Position numbers and translations under genes: made by a program. This document shows positions 3,723 to 29,134 of a DNA stretch of 29,134 nucleotides, one piece after another. The stretch spans positions 1-29,134 of the IMG/VR virus record IMGVR_UViG_3300008113_000363; one strand, given 5' to 3'. Source of the stretch: a virus. Under the pieces are notes generated by a model. That model was not told where the DNA came from and searched no databases. It saw nothing but the letters and a program-made list of their open reading frames with translations. Each line of letters starts with the position of its first letter. Position 1 is the first letter of the stretch.

Positions 3723-4985
3723 TTATCTCCTAATACTATTTATCAATTCAGCTATCTTATTAAGCGGTGCTGCTACTTGATCTGCTAGAAAGTCTTTGTT
3801 TGTTATTAAATCAAAGTTATGCTGTATTAAATCTTTTTCATGTGTTTGCGTGAGGCTTAGTTCGTTGAGGAAATTTCCAACTGAACGATAATCACTGATA
3901 TCCAAATGCTCTGTTAGTGTTTTAAAACCCAACGTATTTAAGTGCCGCGACATTTCGGGTGGCCCGTAAATTATAGGTGCTGCTGCTGTTAAAAAACACT
4001 TGTAAGTTTTCTCAGTTACGATCCCGCAGCCGCCCAAGGGACTCGACAGCTCATCACCTATATAAGTTTCAGCTACCAAATAATATCTATATTGATTAAA
4101 TATAGACATATCATGTAACACAACACTTTCCCATGTACCATAAGGAGCGTTAGGTAAACTTTTTGGAAAAGTATGATTTGATAAGAATAAATTTATCTGA
4201 TTCATAATTTCAGTGTTACCTAAATGTTGACCATTATTAGATAGTTGGTATCTATCTACCGCATTGCTGTGATTATATCCCATGCTCCATGTACATTTAT
4301 CTAATATGTTTATAGAGTCTAAATAGGATAATATTTTTAATCTGTGTATCCTAGGTTTAAACGTAGGCACTATACAAAAATTTGGCGGCGTATAAGAACT
4401 TATATTATCTAAAAGGCTTTGTTTGTTGTCGAGAATGTGCTCTCGAATGGTAGCGCAAATAACCAACCAATAATCGTAATATATTTTATAAATGTTTAAT
4501 TGCGGATAGTCTTGCATTTGTAATCCGCTGCCAACCAAAAATAATTGTTTTGGCTTAATATTTTGATCTATTAGTAATTTTACTAAATTTAAATTTTCAT
4601 CATGATAGAGATTTCCGCCCTCTTCAAAGTCGTTTAGAATCACAGGATATGATTCTAATAGCGTCTTTAATTTATTTTTAGGTAACGAATTTATAATATC
4701 AACAGATATTTCGATGACTAGATTTTCAATATTTAATGAGGTTGTTAAGAGTTCATTAATGTCGACACCGGTCATGCCAAAATACTTTCCTAATGCTATA
4801 CCTTTTAACTTTGGCAGAACATTGGGAGTAATAATTTGAGAATTTATATAGGTTCGTGCTAATTTTGGCCTACGTTTTTCTAAAATATGTGTACGTGTTT
4901 CTTTTGTGCCTAAAAAATTATCAATAAAGGTCTGCCAACTATATTTTCCAACATTTTTTAAAGAAAGTTTTTCAATGTGGATCAT
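3723..4985 (-). CDS. Probable glycosyltransferase (GT10/fucosyltransferase-like C-terminus)
   Basis: A 420-aa protein whose C-terminal part (residues about 321-355) has the pattern IVTEKTYKCFLTAAAPIIYG followed by PPEMSRHLNTLGF. This resembles the donor-binding motif of GT10-type glycosyltransferases (TEK...A...P..YG) and of many uncharacterised phage proteins annotated as glycosyltransferases. A basic segment FKPRIHRLKILSYL lies near residue 209. The N-terminal half is AT-rich, Ile/Leu/Asn-rich and unlike anything I recognise. Its start overlaps the terminase stop (TAATG), so it is coupled to packaging. Its last codons contain the late promoter and Shine-Dalgarno of the next gene. It might glycosylate virion or host surface material. 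No substrate can be named. Confidence 0.5.
   Translation of the reverse strand: MIHIEKLSLKNVGKYSWQTFIDNFLGTKETRTHILEKRRPKLARTYINSQIITPNVLPKLKGIALGKYFGMTGVDINELLTTSLNIENLVIEISVDIINSLPKNKLKTLLESYPVILNDFEEGGNLYHDENLNLVKLLIDQNIKPKQLFLVGSGLQMQDYPQLNIYKIYYDYWLVICATIREHILDNKQSLLDNISSYTPPNFCIVPTFKPRIHRLKILSYLDSINILDKCTWSMGYNHSNAVDRYQLSNNGQHLGNTEIMNQINLFLSNHTFPKSLPNAPYGTWESVVLHDMSIFNQYRYYLVAETYIGDELSSPLGGCGIVTEKTYKCFLTAAAPIIYGPPEMSRHLNTLGFKTLTEHLDISDYRSVGNFLNELSLTQTHEKDLIQHNFDLITNKDFLADQVAAPLNKIAELINSIRR
3737..3744 (-). promoter_or_regulatory. T4-type late promoter for the 424-aa gene
   Basis: GATAAATA on the minus strand, 18 bases before the ATG at 3718, with AGGAGA in between. The octamer and the Shine-Dalgarno site are encoded by the last codons of the upstream glycosyltransferase-like gene. 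Confidence 0.75.
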
Positions 4986-6562
4986 TAGAGTACCGGCATT
5001 GGTGAATCGTATTCATCCTCTTGGAAGAATTCATCAGTACTCAAGCTGTTGTTAACTGCGCCAAACACTTCATCTTCAAACGTACTGATATAAGTTATCA
5101 TACGCACAGCAATTAACAAGCTCATAACTAAGTCATCAGTTTGTCCTGGTTTAGCACTATAACTGTTTCCGCGAGCTACAAAGTTCTTAAGTTCGCTGAT
5201 CAGCATCTTACTGTTAATAGTAATTTTATCTTTTTCAATTAAACGCTTTAGTGCAATAGCTGCTTCAACTTTGCTCTTGTGGTTAGTGTGGAAGCCTTTA
5301 CGACCCTTATAACCCTGAATACGCTTAGGCTCGTGTAAGAAGTCTCCCGGGAAATTTTCTTCACCGGTGTCGCGGATCACAACTAGTGCTGCTTCGCCAA
5401 TACTGTTATTTTCTACAGACCAATAAATTTGATGTGCCCCGCGCTCCTTAATGTACTGCATGATGTCCATCATTGTACGCATCTGGCCTTCAATGGGGGT
5501 TTTGTTGTTACACCATTCTGCTACCTGTATCATTGAAGGAAGCTCGATAACTTGAATACCGGCATTGTCGCCGCCAGTGCCTGCGCTAGGATCTAATGCA
5601 ACCACATACATATTAGCAGGACTTATATGCTTGTACCAGCGTACTTGCCCCATGCGGGATATTGGATCGATCCCGTCTAAGTCTAATAGCTTAACAGGAT
5701 TGATTAATGTTTCGTCATAGATGATGAATTCACACTCATGTTCGCGGCGGAAGCGTTCATCACCAATACGACTGCGTTCTGCGTCAGCCCAAGATTGATC
5801 TCGTTCAGGATGTTCGTCCCATTTAGCAAACAACGGCTTAAATCCGTTTACACCTACTTCAGTCTCATTACCGTATTCGTCATAGTTCTTATTTGCTGCT
5901 TTCCAAATTTCAGCAAAAGTATCTTCGTCACTGCTAGGAGTACTGGTAACAATACACTTACCACCAGTGCTTAGTGTAGGCGACAGCGAAGCCCAAAATT
6001 CTTTAGCAATAGTATTACGCACGAATGCAAACTCGTCTAAGTAAATTAGCGAAATACTCATACCACGACCAGTGTTTTCTGTTGTAGTAGTACTTACAAT
6101 GCGTGAGCCGTTATCAAATGTGATACTGCCTTTGTTGTATTCAGTAACGCCTGCTCGAATGTGATCAGGAGTGTTTTCGTATGCGTAGCGGATACGTGTC
6201 ATAATTTCACTAGCACCGGTTTGCTTATGTGCAGCAACAAGAATAGTCGAATCTGGCACAAACATTGCGTACCAGAGTAAATAACCAGCAGCAACAGTAG
6301 TTTTACCCATCTGTCTGCCTAACATGTTAATACTATAACGATAGTTGTTGTAATTTTTAATCAGTTCTAGCTGATAATCAAACGGAACAAACTTAATTGC
6401 ACCCTTAGTAGGATGCTGAATCATCATGTACTTTTCCATAAAATATCTAGGACCTGTATCTGGATGACAACAAGCTCTAAATTCTTTTAGTGTATCATTG
6501 CTATATGCTACTTTAGCATATGCCGATTTAGTGAGACTGCTTTCTACTGTACCTTTAGCCAT
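4985..6562 (-). CDS. 17: gp17 terminase large subunit
   Basis: DNA-packaging ATPase and headful nuclease that docks on the portal. 525 aa, slightly shorter than T4 gp17 (610 aa). The ATPase domain has Walker A GRQMGKTT (residues 82-89), Walker B SLIYLDEFAF near 172-181 and the coupling motif VTSTPS near residue 205. The RNase H-like nuclease domain has ALDPSAGTGGDNAG (first catalytic Asp), WSVENNSIGE (Glu) and QTDDLVMS (terminal Asp pair). The next in-frame Met is residue 43, inside the family's conserved N-terminal region, so the first ATG is the likely start. It has no Shine-Dalgarno. The late octamer GATAAATA lies exactly five bases before ATG, suggesting a leaderless mRNA. The stop overlaps the next start. 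Confidence 0.96.
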   Translation of the reverse strand: MAKGTVESSLTKSAYAKVAYSNDTLKEFRACCHPDTGPRYFMEKYMMIQHPTKGAIKFVPFDYQLELIKNYNNYRYSINMLGRQMGKTTVAAGYLLWYAMFVPDSTILVAAHKQTGASEIMTRIRYAYENTPDHIRAGVTEYNKGSITFDNGSRIVSTTTTENTGRGMSISLIYLDEFAFVRNTIAKEFWASLSPTLSTGGKCIVTSTPSSDEDTFAEIWKAANKNYDEYGNETEVGVNGFKPLFAKWDEHPERDQSWADAERSRIGDERFRREHECEFIIYDETLINPVKLLDLDGIDPISRMGQVRWYKHISPANMYVVALDPSAGTGGDNAGIQVIELPSMIQVAEWCNNKTPIEGQMRTMMDIMQYIKERGAHQIYWSVENNSIGEAALVVIRDTGEENFPGDFLHEPKRIQGYKGRKGFHTNHKSKVEAAIALKRLIEKDKITINSKMLISELKNFVARGNSYSAKPGQTDDLVMSLLIAVRMITYISTFEDEVFGAVNNSLSTDEFFQEDEYDSPMPVL

Positions 6563-11456: not shown

Positions 11457-12839
11457 TTATCCGTCGTCCGAGGGTGGAATATATGTTGATTCCGCGGTAC
11501 TAGCTGAACCTGTCTCTTGTGCAGTGTTTGGTTGAGTCTTTGCTGGACGGGTTGGAGCTACAACATTAGTTATTCCTTGCACTGCGCCGCCGACTGCGGT
11601 GTTAATTACGGCATTTTTAATGCTAGTACCGTGAATAGCTGCTGATAATGCATTATCTGCAATGTCACCTAATAGTCCACCAATAAATGATTTTCCTTTT
11701 TTTACAGGAGTAGAAAAATCGCCTCTAGCACCGTATACTGATGGTAATGGTGATTCTCGGTCGGCTGAGACTACAATATCCTCCTGTGCTGCTGCGGCTT
11801 CGGCAGCAGCAGCGGTAGCAGCAGCTGGTGTTCCGCTAGTTGGCGGTTGGGCTGGTGCGGAGGTAGGATTATCGCCTTGTGTATCAGTAGGGGTAACTGT
11901 TCCTGCAGAACTAGGGTTGATTGCATCTGATGGCTGGGGCTGAAAAGTTCTAAAATATTCTAATTCGCCACGACTACCGTTACCACTTAATGTTTCCAAT
12001 GTACGTTCCTGTAACAGCACAGGAGTACCGATAGGAACAAATGCAGGTCCTGTAAATCCAGTAGCATTTTCGAATCGCGCAATATCAAACTCACTTAAAC
12101 CAAAATTAACCTGTTCGTATATAGTAAATGATTCGTATTCAAATGTCATGTCAAATTCCATAACGTCCGAACTTGAGTAATCAATGTCTCCAGTTCTAAA
12201 TCGAGTCAGTACAGGATTGATAAGACTATATTGTACCGCTTTATTACCATGATAGATAACATAGTCAATGCGTTCAAAGAAATTTGCTAGTTCGTTTACA
12301 TTATATCCATAGGCATTACTATCCCAGCGGTTGCTTCCTGTTGTGCCAAAGCTAGAATTCTCTGCCATCCGAGTAGAGTCGTCGCGGCGAGGATCTGGGC
12401 CAACATCGCGCTCATTATACTGCTTGTTTCTAGGATTCATATAATGATAGGTAAAATACTTCATAAACATCGTCAACCATTCATTATTGATTGTGTCAAA
12501 GACTTTAATGTCTACGGGTTGATACTCGACCCCAGTATTAACAATACGTTTTCTATTGTATGCATTTTTAGTTTCTGTTTTGAATTCAACTTCAGGTAAG
12601 GTAGCAGTCCTAACCAAACTGCCTAACCTCAATCTAAAATTTGAACTGTTCATATCGCCATAAAGGCTACTATCACCGTATAGCAAACGGTTTACAACAA
12701 AACTTACATATCCTTGGAATTTTTGCCGCGGCGGATTTTGATCTGGACGGAATCCGTATGCGTTGCGAAAGTCTCGTGCATAAAAACCGTTGCCGCCGCC
12801 TGGACCGAAAATGTCTAAAATTTTTCCAACAATGCTCAT
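11457..12839 (-). CDS. Tail-tube-fold baseplate protein (gp54/gp48-like)
   Basis: 460 aa. The central part has features shared by T4 gp54, gp48 and gp19: a strand LPEVEFKTETKNAYNRKRIV near residue 80, VDIKVFDTINNEWLTMFMKYF near 110, and near 220 VMEFDMTFEYESFTIYEQVN, which parallels the final strand of tail-tube domains. These proteins cap the baseplate and start tail-tube polymerisation. I cannot decide between gp48 and gp54. The C-terminal third is a low-complexity Ala/Pro/Thr linker with a poly-Ala run near residues 335-350, then a Gly/Ala-rich hydrophobic segment. It follows gp19 past a hairpin. Start: GGAG upstream, with MSIVGK favoured over an out-of-frame ATG four bases earlier. Confidence 0.7.
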   Translation of the reverse strand: MSIVGKILDIFGPGGGNGFYARDFRNAYGFRPDQNPPRQKFQGYVSFVVNRLLYGDSSLYGDMNSSNFRLRLGSLVRTATLPEVEFKTETKNAYNRKRIVNTGVEYQPVDIKVFDTINNEWLTMFMKYFTYHYMNPRNKQYNERDVGPDPRRDDSTRMAENSSFGTTGSNRWDSNAYGYNVNELANFFERIDYVIYHGNKAVQYSLINPVLTRFRTGDIDYSSSDVMEFDMTFEYESFTIYEQVNFGLSEFDIARFENATGFTGPAFVPIGTPVLLQERTLETLSGNGSRGELEYFRTFQPQPSDAINPSSAGTVTPTDTQGDNPTSAPAQPPTSGTPAAATAAAAEAAAAQEDIVVSADRESPLPSVYGARGDFSTPVKKGKSFIGGLLGDIADNALSAAIHGTSIKNAVINTAVGGAVQGITNVVAPTRPAKTQPNTAQETGSASTAESTYIPPSDDG

Positions 12840-12862
12840 GCATTCGACTCCGCTAAAGAATA

Positions 12863-12890
12863 ATAGTGTAGCCGAAAACGGCTACACTAT
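12863..12890 (-). terminator. Long perfect hairpin after gp19, terminator
   Basis: A 12-bp perfect stem with a 4-base loop (12863-12874 with 12879-12890), 11 bases past the gp19 stop. The T run is better on the plus strand than on the minus strand (TATTATTC), so on the transcribed strand it may be a partial terminator that lets some gp19 transcription continue, or an RNA-stability element. Confidence 0.7.
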
Positions 12891-12901
12891 TTTTACCCAA
12901 A

Positions 12902-13540
12902 TTATACAGTTGTAGTAGTGTTAATTTCAGGTGTATCTTGTGGGAACGGATTACCAGATGTTGTTCTACCGTTAACATCATTATCGCCTTGATAATGTGT
13001 AGCGTTATCGTAACGTACCTGCATAGTAACTGTTACTGGTTCGTTGGTGCTGTAATCACTGTCGCTGTAGTCGACGTTAGTGAAGAAGCAGCCTTCTAAG
13101 AACCAAACTTCACTTGCGCCTGCGTTAACACCGTCTAAGATTTCAATCTGCATGTCAAACTTATAGTCTGAACCTGCTGCTGGTGTTGACTGCTGGAAGT
13201 GGTTTAGCTGGCGCTGGATCTGTCCGCCAACTAGTTTAGTTACGCTGTTAGTGATATCATCACGCACAACAACTGAAATCTGTTCCCAGCTGTGCTTGCC
13301 CTGTAGATACATTCTCGAGTTGTAACTATCAATAGTTACTTCTTCATATGTAATCTTTGGACGGCTAACGTTCTGTACGTTTTGAGTTAGCACTCTTGAT
13401 TCAGGTTCGCCTGCAAACCCACCAAGAAAGCTAACACGGAAACGATACTTTAGCTTAGGCATTAAGATACCTGAGCCTGTGTTACCGGTAACAGGAACAC
13501 CAAATTTACTTCTGGTTTCTGTTGTATTAATATTTGCCAT
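12902..13540 (-). CDS. 19: gp19 tail tube protein
   Basis: Major subunit of the inner tail tube. 212 aa against 163 in T4, with extra residues at the Thr/Asn-rich C-terminus. Visible family features: MPKLKYRFRVSFLGGFAG near 27-44, NVSRPKITYEEVTIDSYNSR near 57-77, and the closing strands EGCFFTNVDYSDSDYSTNEP then VTVTMQVRYDNATHYQ. These match the tail-tube fold shared with other T4-like phages. The start has AGGAGAACAAG upstream, and a late octamer lies 38 bases before ATG. It is the next unit after gp18, the standard T4 order, but here gp18 and gp19 are separated by a terminator and gp19 has its own promoter. Confidence 0.92.
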   Translation of the reverse strand: MANINTTETRSKFGVPVTGNTGSGILMPKLKYRFRVSFLGGFAGEPESRVLTQNVQNVSRPKITYEEVTIDSYNSRMYLQGKHSWEQISVVVRDDITNSVTKLVGGQIQRQLNHFQQSTPAAGSDYKFDMQIEILDGVNAGASEVWFLEGCFFTNVDYSDSDYSTNEPVTVTMQVRYDNATHYQGDNDVNGRTTSGNPFPQDTPEINTTTTV

Positions 13541-13578
13541 CTTGTTCTCCTACGAACGGTTAGTTCTTTCTATGTAAA

Positions 13579-13586
13579 TATTTATC
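13579..13586 (-). promoter_or_regulatory. T4-type late promoter of gp19
   Basis: GATAAATA on the minus strand, 38 bases before the gp19 ATG, between the gp18 terminator and the gp19 Shine-Dalgarno. Confidence 0.75.
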
Positions 13587-13626
13587 ATATAAACGGAAAA
13601 AACATTAACTCTTGTTTTAATTTGAC

Positions 13627-13654
13627 AAAAAAAGGGGCATTACTGCCCCTTTTT
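13627..13654 (-). terminator. Rho-independent terminator after gp18
   Basis: Stem AAAAAGGGGCA/TGCCCCTTTTT (13629-13639 with 13644-13654), 4-base loop, with further Ts on the minus strand, 21 bases past the gp18 stop. Confidence 0.9.
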
Positions 13655-13675
13655 CCGTACAGCAAAGAATAAATC

Positions 13676-16468
13676 TTACTGTGATGAGCCCAACGTATTT
13701 TGGATACGAATTGGAATGTAGATGAACTCAACTGCTTTGACTGGCTGGATAGCGATGTCAATGTGCAATTCGTTACGATCGATTCTTGCAGGTGTGTTAT
13801 TTGTTGTATCACAGACTGTTAGGAAGTCGAACAAACCACGCTGTGTTATTAGCTGACCTAAGAAGCGATCAACTACAACCTTTGCGTTTTGACGAGTAAT
13901 TTCATCATTTGGTTCAAACAAGAATGGTTTCATGATGTCATCTAAGCGTTCACGAATGTAAACAACTAGACGTGCAACATTAACACGATCCAATGCACTT
14001 GATACAGGGTTTAGAGTCTTTTGACCAAACACTGCTAGGCCTCTTCCCGGGAAGTTGCCGATTGGGTTAATCTTGTTAACATATAAGCTATCACGTTGGC
14101 CTTCGCTTAGTGCAACCGATACATATTCTGCACTTGCTGCATCTAAGTAACCTACACTAGTAGCATTGCTTACTAGACCGCGCTGGAAGCCAGCTGGTGC
14201 AAACCATGGGAAAGCTACCTGATCGTTAAACGCTAGTGTACGTAGAGCAATATGACTTGCTGGCTGTAACACGTTTGTACCATTAAGGTTTGTTGTTAGC
14301 GCATGTGGATAGTAAACACCTACATATGGTGAGCTACTTACTAAGCCATCTTCACCGTTCACATCAGCATTATTAGTGTTAGTGGCCCATGCTTGAGTAG
14401 CGGTTGCACTTGAAGCTAGACGTAAAGGAGCATCAGCAATAATAAATGCTGTTTCCTTACGATCAACATTTAGACTGATCATTTCGTCGATTAGCTCAGG
14501 ATAACCTGGAGCAGTGATTAAGTTGAAACGATTTATTTCATTTCTAGCTTCTTCGCTGGCTGCAATTGCTGCCTGCATTTGACGTACAACTGATTGACGC
14601 TGTGCCTTACGTAGCATATATGGTGAACCGTCTGGTTTGTTACCCGAGTAGTCAACCCACTTAGGACCAATATCGTTACCACTGATTATGTAAACGTCGT
14701 TATACTGTTTAACGTTGCCGCCGCTGGCACGCTTATTCCAAGCTAAGATACCAATTGGTAAGTTCTCAGGTCTTGGCGCATCTGCATCCATAGTTGCAGA
14801 AAGCGTATCAGCACGTGGCCTAAAGTCTGCAAAGACGATGCCGTCACCACTGACTTGGTCTGTGTTGTCTACTAACACCCACTCATCATCTGCACTCCAC
14901 TTGTAGATTACAGGGAAGTTTTCTAAATCTCCGCCATCAATCCATAAGTCGCCAGTTGCTAGTGTTGTTGATCCGTCACTTTGTTTAGTTGGCTCGCTAG
15001 CGGTTACCTGAATGTCGTTTGAATATGTTACCCAACCGTTAGCTGATTGATTAACAAGGATGTCAATATTATCTGCACTGACTACGTTATCAAACCATAA
15101 TGTACCATTAGCTGTTTCGCCCACTACTTCAGTAGCACTTGCTTCGTAACTTAGTACTTCCCAGTTTGTATAAGGCGTATCTGCTGTTAGGTTTAAGTTA
15201 GCTGGAGTAAATCCTGAAACGTTACCCGCTGCAAGTAAAATGTCGCGGCCTGAAGTATTAACAATTCTAACTTTTCCGCTTAAATTACTAGCAAGTACAT
15301 TTGTAGTAAAGCTAACAGTGGCGTTTGCACCTGATAATGCGCTGTTGATGTCTGCTACAATATTGTCTACACTAGCAATACCTGCGGTATTTGAACTCAA
15401 TGTTACAGGTACTGCTGTTCCCTCGTTTACTGCAATAGTAAATGATATTTTATTTGCATGAGTGCTTACATTTGTAGCACCTAATGCTGCGCTAGATGTA
15501 ACAGTTAAACTGCTGTTACCGTTGTGACGACGTAGAGTAATTGTTGCATCATCGTTAGTAAAGTCGGCCCAAAGGTCGCCTTCGCTTAAGTTATCACCGT
15601 AGATTGTGAAAGCTGAAGCAGAATTAAGATATTGCTCAACAGTTTCGCTAACCCATTGACCCGAAGTTGCATTATAAACTTTAACTACAATGCTTGTACC
15701 GTTGTTTGGGCTGCTGACTTGTAGCATTAAGTCGCCTTCAGCTAATGCACCGCCACCACTCTTGATTGAAGGTAGGGCAGTATGTCGTGCTGTTTGGAAA
15801 TCTTTGCCGCTTGCGCTGTCCCAGCCAGCTGAACCAACTACGTACCAAACACCTGCTAACTTGTGATGTAATTTAACTGTAGCAGCAGTATCGCCATCAT
15901 TTTCAAAATAAACTGCTGCAAATTCGCCGTTTCTACCAAAAGCAGGTTTAATACTTGTTGGTGAGCTCATATCACTTGGAGCAGGCACTTTAACAGTCTG
16001 GCGTACCCATGCGGTACCGCTCCAGCTCTTCAGTCCCCATACAGTGTTAGCTGTATCTAACCAATAAGAACCGTTTGCTGCTGCTGCTGATGGTGCAGCA
16101 GCACTTGCTGTTAGCTGATCTAAGTCAACGTTTGCTCTCATTACATAAGCACGATTTGCGATACCTAGGAAGCTATAAGCTGCCATTAAGCCGTATTCGT
16201 TTTGCTCATGACCGTGTAGCGGAGTACCGCCACTTGATTTAAAAATTGGATTACCAAAATTTGTGAGCAGGTCTCTTTGGCTGGTAATCAATTGTACCTT
16301 GCCTGCTGTTGCTGCTGTAGTATAAGCTGCTGTGCCACTACCGTCTGGAGTGCTCTTATCTTGCGCTGTTGCAATTACGATAAGAGGTACAGTGCCTGTT
16401 CCGGCCGGAGCATAAAAGCTCTCGTCGGTAACGCTTACACTTACACCAGGTGAAACTAATGTTGCCAT
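13676..16468 (-). CDS. 18: gp18 contractile tail sheath protein, enlarged
   Basis: Forms the contractile sheath around the gp19 tube. The N-terminal domain (MATLVSPGVSVSVTDESFYA) and C-terminal domain (FGQKTLNPVSSALDRVNVARL, then YIRERLDDIMKPFLFEPND and IDIAIQPVKAVEFIYIPIRI) are typical of T4-type sheaths and form the polymerising core. At 930 aa it exceeds T4 gp18 (659 aa). Residues about 121-540 are a surface insertion containing at least five copies of a loose motif G-D/S/T-L/Y-W-x-D followed by a Trp-Val pair: near 133-154, 245-273, 297-315, 455-480 and 506-532. The insertion is rich in Ser, Thr, Asn and Ala. Shine-Dalgarno GGGAGAA precedes the start. A variant late octamer lies 39 bases upstream and a terminator follows. 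Confidence 0.93.
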   Translation of the reverse strand: MATLVSPGVSVSVTDESFYAPAGTGTVPLIVIATAQDKSTPDGSGTAAYTTAATAGKVQLITSQRDLLTNFGNPIFKSSGGTPLHGHEQNEYGLMAAYSFLGIANRAYVMRANVDLDQLTASAAAPSAAAANGSYWLDTANTVWGLKSWSGTAWVRQTVKVPAPSDMSSPTSIKPAFGRNGEFAAVYFENDGDTAATVKLHHKLAGVWYVVGSAGWDSASGKDFQTARHTALPSIKSGGGALAEGDLMLQVSSPNNGTSIVVKVYNATSGQWVSETVEQYLNSASAFTIYGDNLSEGDLWADFTNDDATITLRRHNGNSSLTVTSSAALGATNVSTHANKISFTIAVNEGTAVPVTLSSNTAGIASVDNIVADINSALSGANATVSFTTNVLASNLSGKVRIVNTSGRDILLAAGNVSGFTPANLNLTADTPYTNWEVLSYEASATEVVGETANGTLWFDNVVSADNIDILVNQSANGWVTYSNDIQVTASEPTKQSDGSTTLATGDLWIDGGDLENFPVIYKWSADDEWVLVDNTDQVSGDGIVFADFRPRADTLSATMDADAPRPENLPIGILAWNKRASGGNVKQYNDVYIISGNDIGPKWVDYSGNKPDGSPYMLRKAQRQSVVRQMQAAIAASEEARNEINRFNLITAPGYPELIDEMISLNVDRKETAFIIADAPLRLASSATATQAWATNTNNADVNGEDGLVSSSPYVGVYYPHALTTNLNGTNVLQPASHIALRTLAFNDQVAFPWFAPAGFQRGLVSNATSVGYLDAASAEYVSVALSEGQRDSLYVNKINPIGNFPGRGLAVFGQKTLNPVSSALDRVNVARLVVYIRERLDDIMKPFLFEPNDEITRQNAKVVVDRFLGQLITQRGLFDFLTVCDTTNNTPARIDRNELHIDIAIQPVKAVEFIYIPIRIQNTLGSSQ

Positions 16469-24305: not shown

Positions 24306-24718
24306 ATGGCTACAAAATTAACAGAGCATTTCACATTAGAAGAAATGACAGCATCACCAACAGCTAAAAAGCTAGGTATACCGTAACAATCAATTCAAGT
24401 TATCGTGCGCCTAAGGTTAACACTGCCGTAGGTGGTTCAAAAACCAGTCAGCACGTTAACGGTCAAGCAATTGACTTTGAAATCAACGGTATTTCAAACA
24501 AGATTGTTGCTGACTGGATTGCTGATAACCTAGAGTTTGACCAAGTAATTTTGGAATTCTACGTAGAAGGCGACAAGAACTCAGGTTGGGTACACGCTTC
24601 TATTAAGAAAGAAGGCGGTAACCGCAAACAAAAATTACTCGCTAAAAAGGATGGTAAGTCAACTAAGTACGTACCAACAAACGATTTTGACCCAACAAAC
24701 GCTTGGAAGAATCTCTAA
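24306..24718 (+). pseudogene. Disrupted M15-type peptidoglycan peptidase (internal deletion plus frameshift)
   Basis: A good Shine-Dalgarno (AAGGAG) and ATG at 24306 open a frame that reads MATKLTEHFTLEEMTASPTA and stops after 26 codons at 24384. From 24383, in another frame, 111 codons continue the same family: VTINSSYRAPKVNTAVGGSK, then SQHVNGQAIDFEI (zinc ligands His and Asp), and GWVHASIKK (third ligand), ending at 24718. Compared with Peptidase M15_3 proteins, the segment of roughly 40 residues that should lie between the two halves is missing. All three zinc-binding residues survive in the second piece, which has no ATG near its beginning. It lies just upstream of an intact endolysin. 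An assembly error is possible. Confidence 0.8.
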
Positions 24719-25352: not shown

Positions 25353-26699
25353 ATGGCAGGTAAGAACTTAGACTTTTGGTATGATGAACAGATAAAACGT
25401 TATCTGATACAAATTATCAGAGTGTTTTCAAACTTTCAAGTAAAAGAATACACTAAGAACGGTGTAAGTTACAACCGTGTGCCTGCTCGTTATGGTGATT
25501 CAAGCAGACTTGTGGCGCATTTGTTACGCAATAACAGCGAAAATATTGTTAACAATGCGCCACAGATTGCTGTGAGTATTCAAAGCATACAGCCTGCTAG
25601 AGATAGAACTGCTGAACCGTTTTTAGTAGACACTCAGCAAGTTGCTGAAAGAAATTTTGATACAAACAATAACAGTTATACTAGTGAACAAGGTAACTTA
25701 TACACTACACAGCGTTACATGCCTGTTCCTTATAATATGACCATCCAAGTAGATATATGGACGACTAATACTGATACTAAGTTACAACTTCTAGAACAAA
25801 TTTTTGTTATTTTTAATCCTAGTATACAGTTACAGAGCAACAGTAACCCACTAGATTGGACCAGTGTGTTTGAAATAGAGCTCACCGACATTACGTGGAG
25901 TAGCAGAGGCATTCCAGCTGGTGTTGATGAGACGTTAGACATTGCAACCATGACATTTAGTGTACCAATTTGGATTAGTCCTCCTGCTAAAGTAAAACGT
26001 CAAACCATCATTCAACAAATTGTTGCCGATATACATAAAGTAAATGATATTTCAGTTCTTGGTTATGATCAAGCATATGCTGACTTTTTTGGAAATATAC
26101 CACAACAAGCCGAAGTTGTTGTTACTCCAGGTGACTACAAAGTATTAGTATCAGGTGCAACTGCTACACTAATTGCGCCAAATAACAATGCAGCTATTTG
26201 GAAAGATATTATCGAAATGAAGGGCGAACTTTCGATGACTAGTTTGTTAAAACTTAACATCAGCAACGACAGCGACAGTGATGAATTTCTTGTTGTAGGC
26301 AGCGTGGTTGCTAATCCGTTAAACAACACATCATTAATTTTTAATCTTGATGTTGACACATTACCGTCGAACACTTTAGCTGACTTAACTAAGATTGTTG
26401 ATCCTACTGCTAGTAGTCCAGGAGATGGACTAGACACAGAAGAATTAGGTCAACGATACTTAATAACAGAATCAATTAGTGCTAGCGGATATCCCAGCTG
26501 GAATGTAGATGCTAACGAAAACGATATTATTCAATACGATGGGTCTAACTGGACTGTGGTATTTAATTCTGCCGCAGTTACATCAACTCAATATGTTACC
26601 AACGATTTTACATCAAAACAATTCAAGTGGACTGGCAGTTCATGGATAAGTAGTTATGAAGGAGAATATAATCCTGGCTACTGGAGACTTGTACTGTAA
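25353..26699 (+). CDS. 15: gp15-like tail sheath stabiliser / tail completion protein, extended
   Basis: Caps the head-proximal end of the tail. The first 240 residues follow T4 gp15: FWYDEQIKRYLIQIIRVFSN then QVKEYTKNG, RVPARYGD, IQSIQPARDRT, YMPVPYNMTIQVDIWTTNTD, QLLEQIFVIFNPSIQL, and the closing MTFSVPIWISPPAKVKRQ. T4 gp15 is 272 aa; here about 200 extra C-terminal residues include GQRYLITESI, NDIIQYDGSNWTVVFNS and SKQFKWTGSSWISSYEGEYN, a beta-rich motif set also seen in the gp18 insertion. A GGAAAA-type ribosome site precedes the start. The stop overlaps the Nudix start (TAATG). It is separated from the gp13-like gene by strand inversion. Confidence 0.88.
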   Translation: MAGKNLDFWYDEQIKRYLIQIIRVFSNFQVKEYTKNGVSYNRVPARYGDSSRLVAHLLRNNSENIVNNAPQIAVSIQSIQPARDRTAEPFLVDTQQVAERNFDTNNNSYTSEQGNLYTTQRYMPVPYNMTIQVDIWTTNTDTKLQLLEQIFVIFNPSIQLQSNSNPLDWTSVFEIELTDITWSSRGIPAGVDETLDIATMTFSVPIWISPPAKVKRQTIIQQIVADIHKVNDISVLGYDQAYADFFGNIPQQAEVVVTPGDYKVLVSGATATLIAPNNNAAIWKDIIEMKGELSMTSLLKLNISNDSDSDEFLVVGSVVANPLNNTSLIFNLDVDTLPSNTLADLTKIVDPTASSPGDGLDTEELGQRYLITESISASGYPSWNVDANENDIIQYDGSNWTVVFNSAAVTSTQYVTNDFTSKQFKWTGSSWISSYEGEYNPGYWRLVL

Positions 26700-27124
26700 T
26701 GACAACTGCCGCGGGCGTGGTATTTTTAGCAAAAGACACTGGTCGCTGCTTATTACAATTACGCAACTCAGATAAGAGATTTAAAAATACCTGGGGATTC
26801 TGGGGAGGCATGATTGAAAAAGGCGAGACTGTCTACGAATGTATCCAGCGTGAGCTCACAGAAGAAATTGGTTTTGTACCCGAACTTGCAAAATTAAATC
26901 CTATTGACGTTTATCAAAGTCGTGATAAAAACTTCTACTATTATAGTTTTGTATATCTAGTCCAAAAAGAATTTAGTCCTCTACTAAACGACGAAAGTGC
27001 AGGTTATGCCTGGGTTAATATAGGTGTTTGGCCGCAACCTTTACACAACGGTGCCCGACTAACATTAAATAAGAACGGCGGAACTGAAAAACTACACACT
27101 ATTCTTGCTATTAATCGAGAATAA
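26699..27124 (+). CDS. Nudix hydrolase
   Basis: 141 aa, a single Nudix domain that hydrolyses nucleoside diphosphates linked to another group. The Nudix box is complete: Gly37, Glu43, then Arg51-Glu52-Leu53-x-Glu55-Glu56-x-Gly58-Phe59, matching G-x5-E-x7-REUxEExGU exactly. The substrate (oxidised dNTP, nucleotide sugar, NAD-type compound or capped RNA) cannot be decided; the N-terminal AAGVVFLAKDTGRCLLQLR and WGFWGGMIEKGE resemble mutT-like and GDP-mannose-type enzymes. The start overlaps the gp15 stop by one base, so it is coupled. Its stop codon lies inside the late octamer of the next gene. Confidence 0.88.
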   Translation: MTTAAGVVFLAKDTGRCLLQLRNSDKRFKNTWGFWGGMIEKGETVYECIQRELTEEIGFVPELAKLNPIDVYQSRDKNFYYYSFVYLVQKEFSPLLNDESAGYAWVNIGVWPQPLHNGARLTLNKNGGTEKLHTILAINRE

Positions 27125-27132: not shown

Positions 27133-27762
27133 ATGAGTGATGATGTAGTTGATTTCGTACTGTTAAGAATACAGCACGAATTACAAAAATATGCTAAATC
27201 CAAAACTATACCTTTTGATTTATTAGAAGGTGCATATTCAATTGACGATATAAAAGTTTATTATTATGGCCAACTTTCAGAGGACTACAAAAAGATTGCT
27301 GATGCACTCATTAACGATTACGAAAAGAAAATAAAAAAAAATTTAGATAGCTTAAAACTTGCGTTAAGGAAAGACTATACTAGCACAATTAATCTGCTCG
27401 AAACCGACTCATCAGATTTTAAATTTCCCTCTGTCTTATCAAAATATCGACGCAATATAAATCCGATTCGAGCATTGTTCTATGAAATAAGAGAGCTGGT
27501 TAGAAGTTTTAATACTGATAACGAATATCATCATTGGCTTTATGGTTTAATTACAGACAACGATTATAATAACAAAATAATAGATGCTCTAAGCATAGAT
27601 ATTAAACGACTAGAAAAAATAGTTAGCAGATATTATTTACCTATGACAAAATATACAGATAAAATACCGCTAGAACTATTTCATGCTAGACAACTAATAA
27701 AAGACTTTCAACACTATAAAAATACATTTACTCGTATTAAATATTGGAATCCTGACGAGTAA
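27133..27762 (+). CDS. Hypothetical helical protein (209 aa)
   Basis: Not recognised. The protein is Lys, Tyr, Asp and Ile-rich, almost entirely helical by eye, with a probable coiled coil near residues 60-90 (DALINDYEKKIKKNLDSLKL). No signal peptide, membrane segment or catalytic motif is visible. The DNA is more AT-rich than its neighbours. It has the leaderless-type late arrangement (octamer five bases before ATG, no Shine-Dalgarno). Its 3' end overlaps the convergent 58-aa gene by 26 bases. Late timing and adjacency to gp15 may suggest a virion or assembly role, but nothing in the sequence shows it. Confidence 0.7.
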   Translation: MSDDVVDFVLLRIQHELQKYAKSKTIPFDLLEGAYSIDDIKVYYYGQLSEDYKKIADALINDYEKKIKKNLDSLKLALRKDYTSTINLLETDSSDFKFPSVLSKYRRNINPIRALFYEIRELVRSFNTDNEYHHWLYGLITDNDYNNKIIDALSIDIKRLEKIVSRYYLPMTKYTDKIPLELFHARQLIKDFQHYKNTFTRIKYWNPDE

Positions 27763-27913
27763 CTGGAATAAAATTTTTACTAGCGTATTCTAAATCGTTG
27801 TCTTTTGCGCGAGCCAGTACTTCGGATGCAAAAGATAAATTTTTAGTTGCTAGTAATATTTTATTATTAGCTATTACAAAATAGTTACCGTTATTATATT
27901 CAAGTTTAATCAT
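27737..27913 (-). CDS. Small protein coupled to the cyclase gene (58 aa)
   Basis: 58 codons beginning MIKLEYNNGNYFVIANNKIL, ending VTRQDSNI. The ATG overlaps the cyclase stop by four bases (ATGA), indicating translational coupling, and the frame fills the space between the two convergent blocks. The N-terminal half looks like a beta hairpin and the middle (SFASEVLARAKDNDLEYA) like a helix. No family is recognised. Coupling suggests it is made with the cyclase, but a functional link is untested. Confidence 0.65.
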   Translation of the reverse strand: MIKLEYNNGNYFVIANNKILLATKNLSFASEVLARAKDNDLEYASKNFIPVTRQDSNI

Positions 27914-29134
27914 TTTGATGTAGCCCTGTATACGCCATCAAAATCTTTAGGCGGTTTTTCGGATGTACGTTCTGCCATCATAGTATAATATCCTTTTAGC
28001 TCTCCGCTCCATATGCCAGTCATCGCTTCGCACATGTTTCTTGCTCGATTCCAATCGCCGCTGCGGTAAGCGGCTAACATTTTGTTGTGTGCAATTTCTG
28101 CTTTGTCATCAAACTTTTCTAGCACCGTGTAAATTTTTACAGGTTCTGTTTTGCCTTTTACTGCGAGTAAATCGAGCTCAATGACTTGGTATGTTTCTTG
28201 CACATATTCAGCCGTTTTTGGTCCGATAATGATTTTAACTCCGTAGGGTTTGGATTGACCTTCAAGGCGAGCAGCAAGATTAACCCCATCGCCAAGACAG
28301 GTATAATCAAAACGCTGATCGCTGCCCATATTGCCAACAACCACAGTATCAGTATTGATACCGAGACCCATACCAAAAGCTGGGATACTTTCTGCCTTAA
28401 TTTCTTCATTGAATTCCTTTAGTGCTGATAACATTTGAAATGCTGTTCTAACTGCATCTTTGGCGTGCTGCTCGTTGTTCACAGGAGCATTCCAAAACGC
28501 CATTTGGGCATCGCCAATATACTTATCAAGCGTACCTTTGTTCTCAAGAATTGCTTTAGTCATTGCAGTCATATAGCGATTCATAATCTTAGTTAGACCC
28601 TGAACATCTTTACCGTAGTGTTCGCTAATTGTAGTAAAGCCTCTTACGTCTGTGAACATGATGCTTAGTTCTTGTTCGTTGCCACCAAGCTGTAATAGCT
28701 CTGGTTGACGTTGTAGCTGTGCTACTAGGTCTGGGCTTAGGTATGTGCCAAACTGTTTCTTAATTTGCTGCTTCTGTAAGAACTCGCTTACAAACTTAAC
28801 ACCATACACATGGAGGGCAACAAGGATAAGACCCAATGCGGTTGCTGTTGCATCTGTGAGCATGTTGTGGTTAACAAACAACCAATAAGAGCCACCGATG
28901 CTGGTAGCAATGCCCGCAACGGTGGTGATTAAACCCACATATGTCCAGCGTGATAGTAAAATTATAATTAAGCCCAGTGCTAATAACGCAGCAATTTCTG
29001 CAAAGTCTGCATAGTCTGGACGTTGAATGTTTACGCCGTTAAACATAGTACCAACTACTGCTGCCTGTAATTCATGTGGATGAACTGGGCCTAGTGCTGT
29101 TGGTACTGGGTTACTAATACCTGCTGCTGTTGGA
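27910..29134 (-). CDS. CHASE2-type membrane adenylate/guanylate cyclase (5' end beyond window)
   Basis: Class III nucleotide cyclase. The first ATG-initiated frame starts at 29046, but the same frame is open to the window end and encodes TALGPVHPHELQAAVVGTMF followed by NGVNIQRPDY, which resembles the end of an extracytoplasmic CHASE2 sensor domain. The true start therefore lies outside. After it come about three hydrophobic segments (residues about 15-32, 36-56 and 66-82 counted from 29046), then the catalytic domain: FTDVRGFTTISE (metal Asp133), DKYIGDAQMAFW (Lys175, Asp179) and CLGDGVNLAARLEG (Asp253, Asn256, Arg260). All key residues are kept and the Lys/Asp pair favours ATP. Such receptors are bacterial, and I know of none as a standard T4-like phage gene. 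Confidence 0.9.
   Translation of the reverse strand, partial: PTAAGISNPVPTALGPVHPHELQAAVVGTMFNGVNIQRPDYADFAEIAALLALGLIIILLSRWTYVGLITTVAGIATSIGGSYWLFVNHNMLTDATATALGLILVALHVYGVKFVSEFLQKQQIKKQFGTYLSPDLVAQLQRQPELLQLGGNEQELSIMFTDVRGFTTISEHYGKDVQGLTKIMNRYMTAMTKAILENKGTLDKYIGDAQMAFWNAPVNNEQHAKDAVRTAFQMLSALKEFNEEIKAESIPAFGMGLGINTDTVVVGNMGSDQRFDYTCLGDGVNLAARLEGQSKPYGVKIIIGPKTAEYVQETYQVIELDLLAVKGKTEPVKIYTVLEKFDDKAEIAHNKMLAAYRSGDWNRARNMCEAMTGIWSGELKGYYTMMAERTSEKPPKDFDGVYRATSK

Follow-up and report, generated by a model that had tools for sequence, protein, structure and literature searches.

The presence of csgF and csgG in pelagimyophages was reported by Zaragoza-Solas et al. (2020; PMC7029224), and a pelagiphage type VIII secretion (curli) cassette that also carries FecR and an adenylate cyclase was described by Wittmers et al. 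(2022; PMC9599517), who regard the module as alphaproteobacterial. A pore that times lysis was suggested by Buchholz et al. (2022; PMC9004378), in whose work cells infected with phage Melnitz did not clump. In bacteria, the signal to which the CHASE2 cyclases of Sinorhizobium meliloti respond is relayed by an outer-membrane protein, NsrA (PMC13001267). Because the cassette has already been published for pelagiphages, the gene analysed here adds a member to a known cassette; a literature search that covered few subscription papers gave no report of this cassette from jumbo phages.

The DNA analysed here, which we call the window, is an IMG/VR virus record of 29,134 bases that is probably a fragment. 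A gene at its very end had been put forward, in an original prediction made from the letters alone, as a receptor-type CHASE2 nucleotide cyclase in a T4-like phage. The features on which the comparison depends are as follows.

4985-6562, minus strand: terminase large subunit, 59% identical to those of PA5oct, MIJ3 and Paride.
25353-26699, plus strand: tail sheath stabiliser (T4 gp15-like), the convergent neighbour of the cyclase (PF16724, E 1e-27; phrog_11196, E 3e-101).
27737-27913, minus strand: gene of 58 aa whose start overlaps the stop of the cyclase (ATGA) and which is probably coupled to it in translation, with homologues that have a matching overlap.
27910-29133, minus strand: CHASE2-type class III adenylate cyclase, C-terminal 407 residues and stop, read as an open frame whose 5' end lies outside the window.
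27913-28125, minus strand: C-terminal tail of the cyclase (profile positions 569-677).
28126-28674, minus strand: class III catalytic domain (PF00211 and residue census).
28750-29010, minus strand: three predicted membrane helices following CHASE2 (309-329, 331-356 and 363-395 of the full protein; AlphaFold2).
28966-29133, minus strand: end of the periplasmic CHASE2 domain, its last ~56 residues (268-323 of the 674-aa L006 protein) and the only part of it within the window.

The cyclase frame stays open for 407 codons as far as the window edge, matches PF00211 above the cut-off (E 7e-21) and corresponds to positions 275-681 of the 681-position phage family PHROG 35576 (E 8e-137). As predicted, it runs on beyond position 29,134. 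The full-length protein was read from a second contig, L006 (IMGVR_UViG_3300042868_009224), which extends beyond the window end, matches the window's final 4752 bases at 98.9% identity and encodes the same 407 cyclase residues without a difference. The L006 protein has 674 residues and consists of an N-terminal transmembrane segment, a CHASE2 domain (Pfam PF05226, residues 15-323, E 5e-35), three further transmembrane segments, a catalytic domain at 421-603 and a tail. AlphaFold2 places helices at 9-25, 309-329, 331-356 and 363-395, the last of which extends as a signalling helix, and hydropathy marks 309-327 and 364-382 as clear membrane segments, the middle helix being less clear. The structure model was made without the Melnitz and HTVC008M rows. 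Its catalytic domain is poor, with pLDDT below 50 in parts, and the scores to the nearest solved structure by fold, CyaB (3r5g), are modest because this part of the model is weak. By sequence, the nearest solved relatives are CyaB of Pseudomonas aeruginosa, Cya2 and CyaC. The extension through L006 thus completes the CHASE2 domain of which the window holds only the end, and the predicted membrane segments and catalytic domain of the original prediction stand with it.

The catalytic domain carries each of the residues expected of a class III cyclase of the adenylate type, namely two Asp for metal (D429 and D475 in full-length numbering), Lys and Thr or Asp for ATP selection (K471 and T545), and Asn and Arg for the transition state (N552 and R556). 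Across 84 aligned sequences these positions are near-invariant: D429, K471, D475 and R556 are present in all 84, N552 in 83 and T545 in 81. The sole exception at N552 is the cyclase of Melnitz (L002:11191-13242), which has Ser for the transition-state Asn and Asp for the Thr; since the Asn is replaced, this enzyme may be weak or of reduced activity. In comparisons of the window cyclase with relatives showing enough synonymous change, dN/dS is 0.03-0.19, indicative of purifying selection. Judged from its coding sequence, the gene is therefore under selection as an enzyme, and the Lys/Thr pairing predicts that its product is very probably cAMP.

Directly downstream, the 58-aa gene gave no match in Pfam or PHROG. 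The proposed coupling to the cyclase is borne out by the ATGA overlap and by homologues placed in the same way in the closest ~16 loci, none being found in more distant ones. The window side of the cyclase is occupied by phage genes, and on the far side L006 carries the curli cassette and a tail-fibre-like gene. A location at the end of a contig invites the explanation that a bacterial cyclase was misassembled onto phage genes. The junction is, however, kept in independent contigs from different samples (L006-L022), and in complete cultured phages the gene likewise lies beside structural genes; on these grounds we exclude a chimera, to which we leave a vanishingly small probability. From its sequence and surroundings, the gene at the window edge is a real membrane-receptor CHASE2 class III cyclase of a large uncultured phage.

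Two matches labelled as Acinetobacter phage (H7 and H8) were set aside, since the one inspected is flanked by the bacterial genes mfd, iscR and hscA. The 108-kb 'Acinetobacter phage MD-2021a' (CAKLQH020000011.1, L004), with mfd and an isc operon around the cyclase, looks like a mislabelled bacterial contig.

The description of the phage as T4-like holds in a broad sense only. A gp15-like protein is present, but the core genes do not have T4, a cyanomyovirus or a pelagimyophage as their closest relatives, as the narrow use of the term would imply. By terminase (59% identity) the nearest phages are PA5oct, MIJ3 and Paride, Pseudomonas phages of ~287 kb, and the terminase, a structural protein, SSB and UvsX follow the gene order of Paride (Arenbergviridae), with identities of 59, 34, 50 and 63-75%, respectively. 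A terminase related to that of the window was found in 11 of 20 cassette-bearing contigs, mostly at 55-74% identity and in two cases in pieces, and these contigs include ones of 250-372 kb. Judged from these terminases, the cassette is thus at home not only in pelagiphages but in a lineage of jumbo phages too.

Several other features of the window are recorded here. The region 11457-16468 encodes a very large tail sheath protein of 930 aa (13676-16468, phrog_10581) and a second, larger tail-tube-like protein of 460 aa (11457-12839) beside the normal one of 212 aa (12902-13540). A NUDIX hydrolase (26699-27124, phrog_1198) is flanked by the tail sheath stabiliser and by an unknown gene of 209 aa. 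About 88 bases that are present in L006 (14752-14839) and L007 are absent at window position 24382/24383; the gap breaks a 166-aa gene, leaving a 55-codon remnant at 24551-24718, and is either an assembly error or a real deletion. Scans for tRNA genes and Rfam families gave no match.

The cyclase is no lone signalling gene: in L006 and at other loci, it is found at the end of a cassette. The gene order in L006 is csgF, csgG, curlin, fecR, a second curlin, the cyclase and the 58-aa gene, followed by the convergent phage structural genes, and all five partners of the cyclase pass Pfam cut-offs (PF10614, PF03783, PF07012 and PF04773). The window contig ends before these genes, which were accordingly read on L006. 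The cultured phages Melnitz and HTVC008M carry the cassette in identical order. The loci compared were the best matches of pattern scans rather than an unbiased census; in this sample, CsgG and FecR were found by profile search, with profiles built from the cassettes of L006, Melnitz and HTVC008M, in 117 of the 118 phage cyclase loci that have 6.5 kb or more of upstream sequence. In a few phages the cyclase and the cassette are on opposite strands, still within a few kilobases of each other (for example L031, L072 and L083). The reciprocal comparison, of 45 CsgG loci with full flanks, gave FecR and CsgF in all 45 and a cyclase nearby in 41; three of the remaining four have the cyclase elsewhere on the contig, so that 44 of 45 have one on the same contig, and the last is a 31-kb fragment. 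Across distant phages the cyclase is thus linked near-obligatorily to CsgG and FecR, and gene order argues that the cyclase is almost certainly part of the curli cassette, as its last gene.

This linkage bears directly on what the cyclase might be for. It could serve general host takeover, its cAMP reprogramming host metabolism independently of the curli machinery, and an intact cyclase, the absence of a phage-encoded receiver and the host CRP-type receptors that are common in bacteria (control genomes) would all suit such a role. It would, however, leave unexplained why CsgG and FecR accompany the cyclase at 117 of 118 loci and do so even after rearrangement, and because the receptor domain is conserved the output is probably conditional. 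We therefore regard general takeover as an unlikely explanation, and the linkage in particular tells against a cyclase that acts on its own.

Also to be weighed is the proposal of a lysis-timing or pore device, with CsgG-CsgF as a pinholin or gated secretin and the cyclase as a sensor of envelope state rather than of fibres. The proposal of Buchholz et al. and the lack of clumping that accompanied it (PMC9004378) speak for this, and CHASE2 could report on the envelope equally well; a pure pore, however, would have no need of the curlin-repeat proteins that are encoded in the window-type cassette (PF07012) and in most loci. A pore device seems to us improbable, if somewhat less so than general takeover.

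Further small genes lie at the head of the cassette. Immediately upstream of csgF in L006 (3804-4614) are two small proteins with hydrophobic starts (98 and 116 aa) and no convincing family. Just upstream of csgF in a number of phages is a stand-alone ORF of 99-128 aa that is homologous to the cyclase tail (profile 569-677; L031, L036, L072, L073, L074, L085, L339, L343, L345, L359, L361, L366, L378 and L394), and uncharacterised phage proteins of ~104 aa in BFVD match the fold of the tail. Such stand-alone tails could be regulators that bind or compete with the cyclase.

The candidate for a link between exporter and receptor is FecR. The L006 protein matches PF04773 (E 4e-11), and the model of phage FecR comprises a signal-peptide-like helix, a beta domain, a further helix and a confident C-terminal beta domain. 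In Foldseek the beta domain matches the cell-surface-signalling domain of PupR (6ovk, E 5e-4). The signal-peptide-like helix is followed immediately by the beta domain, leaving no cytoplasmic anti-sigma domain, and the L006 cassette contains no sigma factor. The last strand of 160 of 204 phage FecR proteins bears, at most a few residues from the C-terminus, the motif [ITVLSA]-x-[ITVLA]-x-Q, which 142 of 225 phage curlins also show; the motif, which was defined after inspection of the data, occurs in 6% of shuffled sequences, in one of 39 bacterial FecR proteins and in one of 215 phage cyclases. As the Pfam curlin model gives no match on the FecR C-terminus, the likeness is one of motif, and that phage FecR ends in a curlin-like strand is suggestive only.

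A phylogeny against bacterial cyclases, which the original prediction had called for, separates 100 phage from 58 cellular sequences by a single branch with support of 100 (FastTree; the cellular sampling was the best 80), consistent with long residence in phages. Most of the nearest cellular cyclases (33-38% identity) come from Alphaproteobacteria, matches that make a bacterial origin likely. That the gene might be decaying or passenger bacterial DNA without phage function would follow naturally from such an origin, but the low dN/dS (0.03-0.19), the retained catalytic residues and the position of the phage sequences on their own side of the branch make this highly improbable.

The surroundings of the cellular genes suggest how the cassette may have been put together. 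Directly upstream of the cyclase and on the same strand, 24 of 56 cellular loci have a FecR-domain protein, and neither CsgF nor CsgG was found in any of the 56. Among these upstream FecR proteins, two of those scanned (L088 and L137) also have cadherin, Ig and RTX or serralysin-type repeats, which are characteristic of surface proteins that are secreted; others, of 480-600 aa, have no domain but FecR. Conversely, FecR and cyclase are absent within 19 kb of five strong alphaproteobacterial curli loci, CsgG is absent from 14 of 15 genomes with close cyclases, and among ~400 genomes sampled none was a bacterial source with the whole cassette. By gene neighbourhood, FecR and the CHASE2 cyclase are a separate bacterial sensor pair, and we take the phage cassette to be a curli exporter joined to such a pair, which refines the view of FecR and the cyclase as extras in a curli region. 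Adhesin-type repeats are fused to the FecR domain in some bacteria; in phages a piece of curlin-like strand seems to take their place.

The explanation that we favour overall, at a probability of roughly 60%, is that a receptor adenylate cyclase closes a phage type VIII (curli) cassette and would report the state of the curli as cAMP. According to this model, FecR would inform the CHASE2 domain that curli are being exported or that a fibre has docked at the CsgG-CsgF pore, the cyclase would make cAMP, the cAMP would act on a host CRP-type receptor, and host physiology would change while the infected cell displays fibres or the pore is open. In the infected cell, the phage would thus probably use the cyclase to convert the state of its fibre machinery to a cAMP signal. 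The steps differ in how firmly they can be held. Reading of CHASE2 through FecR, a contact suggested by the gene pairing, would be the simplest mechanism and is reasonably likely, with precedents in the NsrA-dependent cyclases of S. meliloti (PMC13001267) and in the Burkholderia pairing of FecR with a CHASE2 kinase (PMC5192318); that the signal is export or fibre state falls a little short of an even chance. The absence of clumping in Melnitz infection (PMC9004378) counts against the model. A search of 40 phage records gave no cNMP-binding domain (PF00027, the cAMP receptor family), and consequently a host protein would have to receive the cAMP; a CRP-type receptor has an even chance of being that protein. 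The rewiring of host signalling that was originally proposed is for the same reason possible but would depend on the host. More tentatively, and on balance doubtfully, the whole may amount to a self-monitoring amyloid exporter, assembled from two bacterial modules and common to pelagiphages and jumbo phages, in which a FecR whose end resembles curlin links the CHASE2 cyclase to curli secretion and so renders fibre state as cAMP.

Membrane receptors that make a second messenger are uncommon in phages, and this one hardly ever occurs apart from an exported amyloid machine. Should the cyclase indeed read the curli machine, phages would govern the surface of their host cell through a feedback loop. 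Since cultured phages with the cassette exist (Melnitz and HTVC008M), the idea of a sensor is directly testable.

Comparison with described systems places the locus as follows. Like the published pelagiphage cassette (PMC9599517; PMC7029224), that of the window lineage has CsgF, CsgG, curlin, FecR, curlin and cyclase beside structural genes; it differs in that its phages are close to the jumbo phages PA5oct and Paride, and the word CHASE2 does not appear in the text of PMC9599517. Podovirus cassettes start with a histidine kinase (PMC9599517), whereas the histidine kinase A domain (PF00512) was absent from 19 cassette-bearing phage records here and no kinase is annotated beside csgF in HTVC008M or Melnitz, the published myovirus versions. 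The cyclases of Methylophilales phage Melnitz (QZI95054) and Pelagibacter phage HTVC008M (AGE60353) are full-length homologues, 38% identical to the window protein, that share both the receptor-cyclase layout and the cassette. Melnitz has Asp and Ser where the window cyclase has Thr and Asn; HTVC008M has Ser for the Thr and lacks the C-terminal tail.

Among bacteria, alphaproteobacterial pairs (Bradyrhizobium, Thalassospira and others) have FecR directly upstream of a CHASE2 cyclase that is homologous over its full length, but their FecR is longer, in some cases fused to cadherin, Ig or RTX repeats, and no curli genes are nearby. In the Burkholderia BiofilmReg operon, which is tied to biofilm formation, a FecR likewise adjoins a CHASE2 receptor, the output of which is a histidine kinase and response regulator rather than cAMP (PMC5192318). 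CyaD1, CyaD2 and CyaK of S. meliloti, with NsrA, resemble the phage system by description, being CHASE2 cyclases that raise cAMP on a signal relayed from the outer membrane; they are bacterial and act on Clr in symbiosis (PMC13001267). The value of the present locus lies in its context, the almost obligatory pairing of a receptor cyclase with an amyloid exporter, which extends well beyond SAR11 phages: its occurrence on contigs of 250-372 kb shows that the cassette is no peculiarity of that group.
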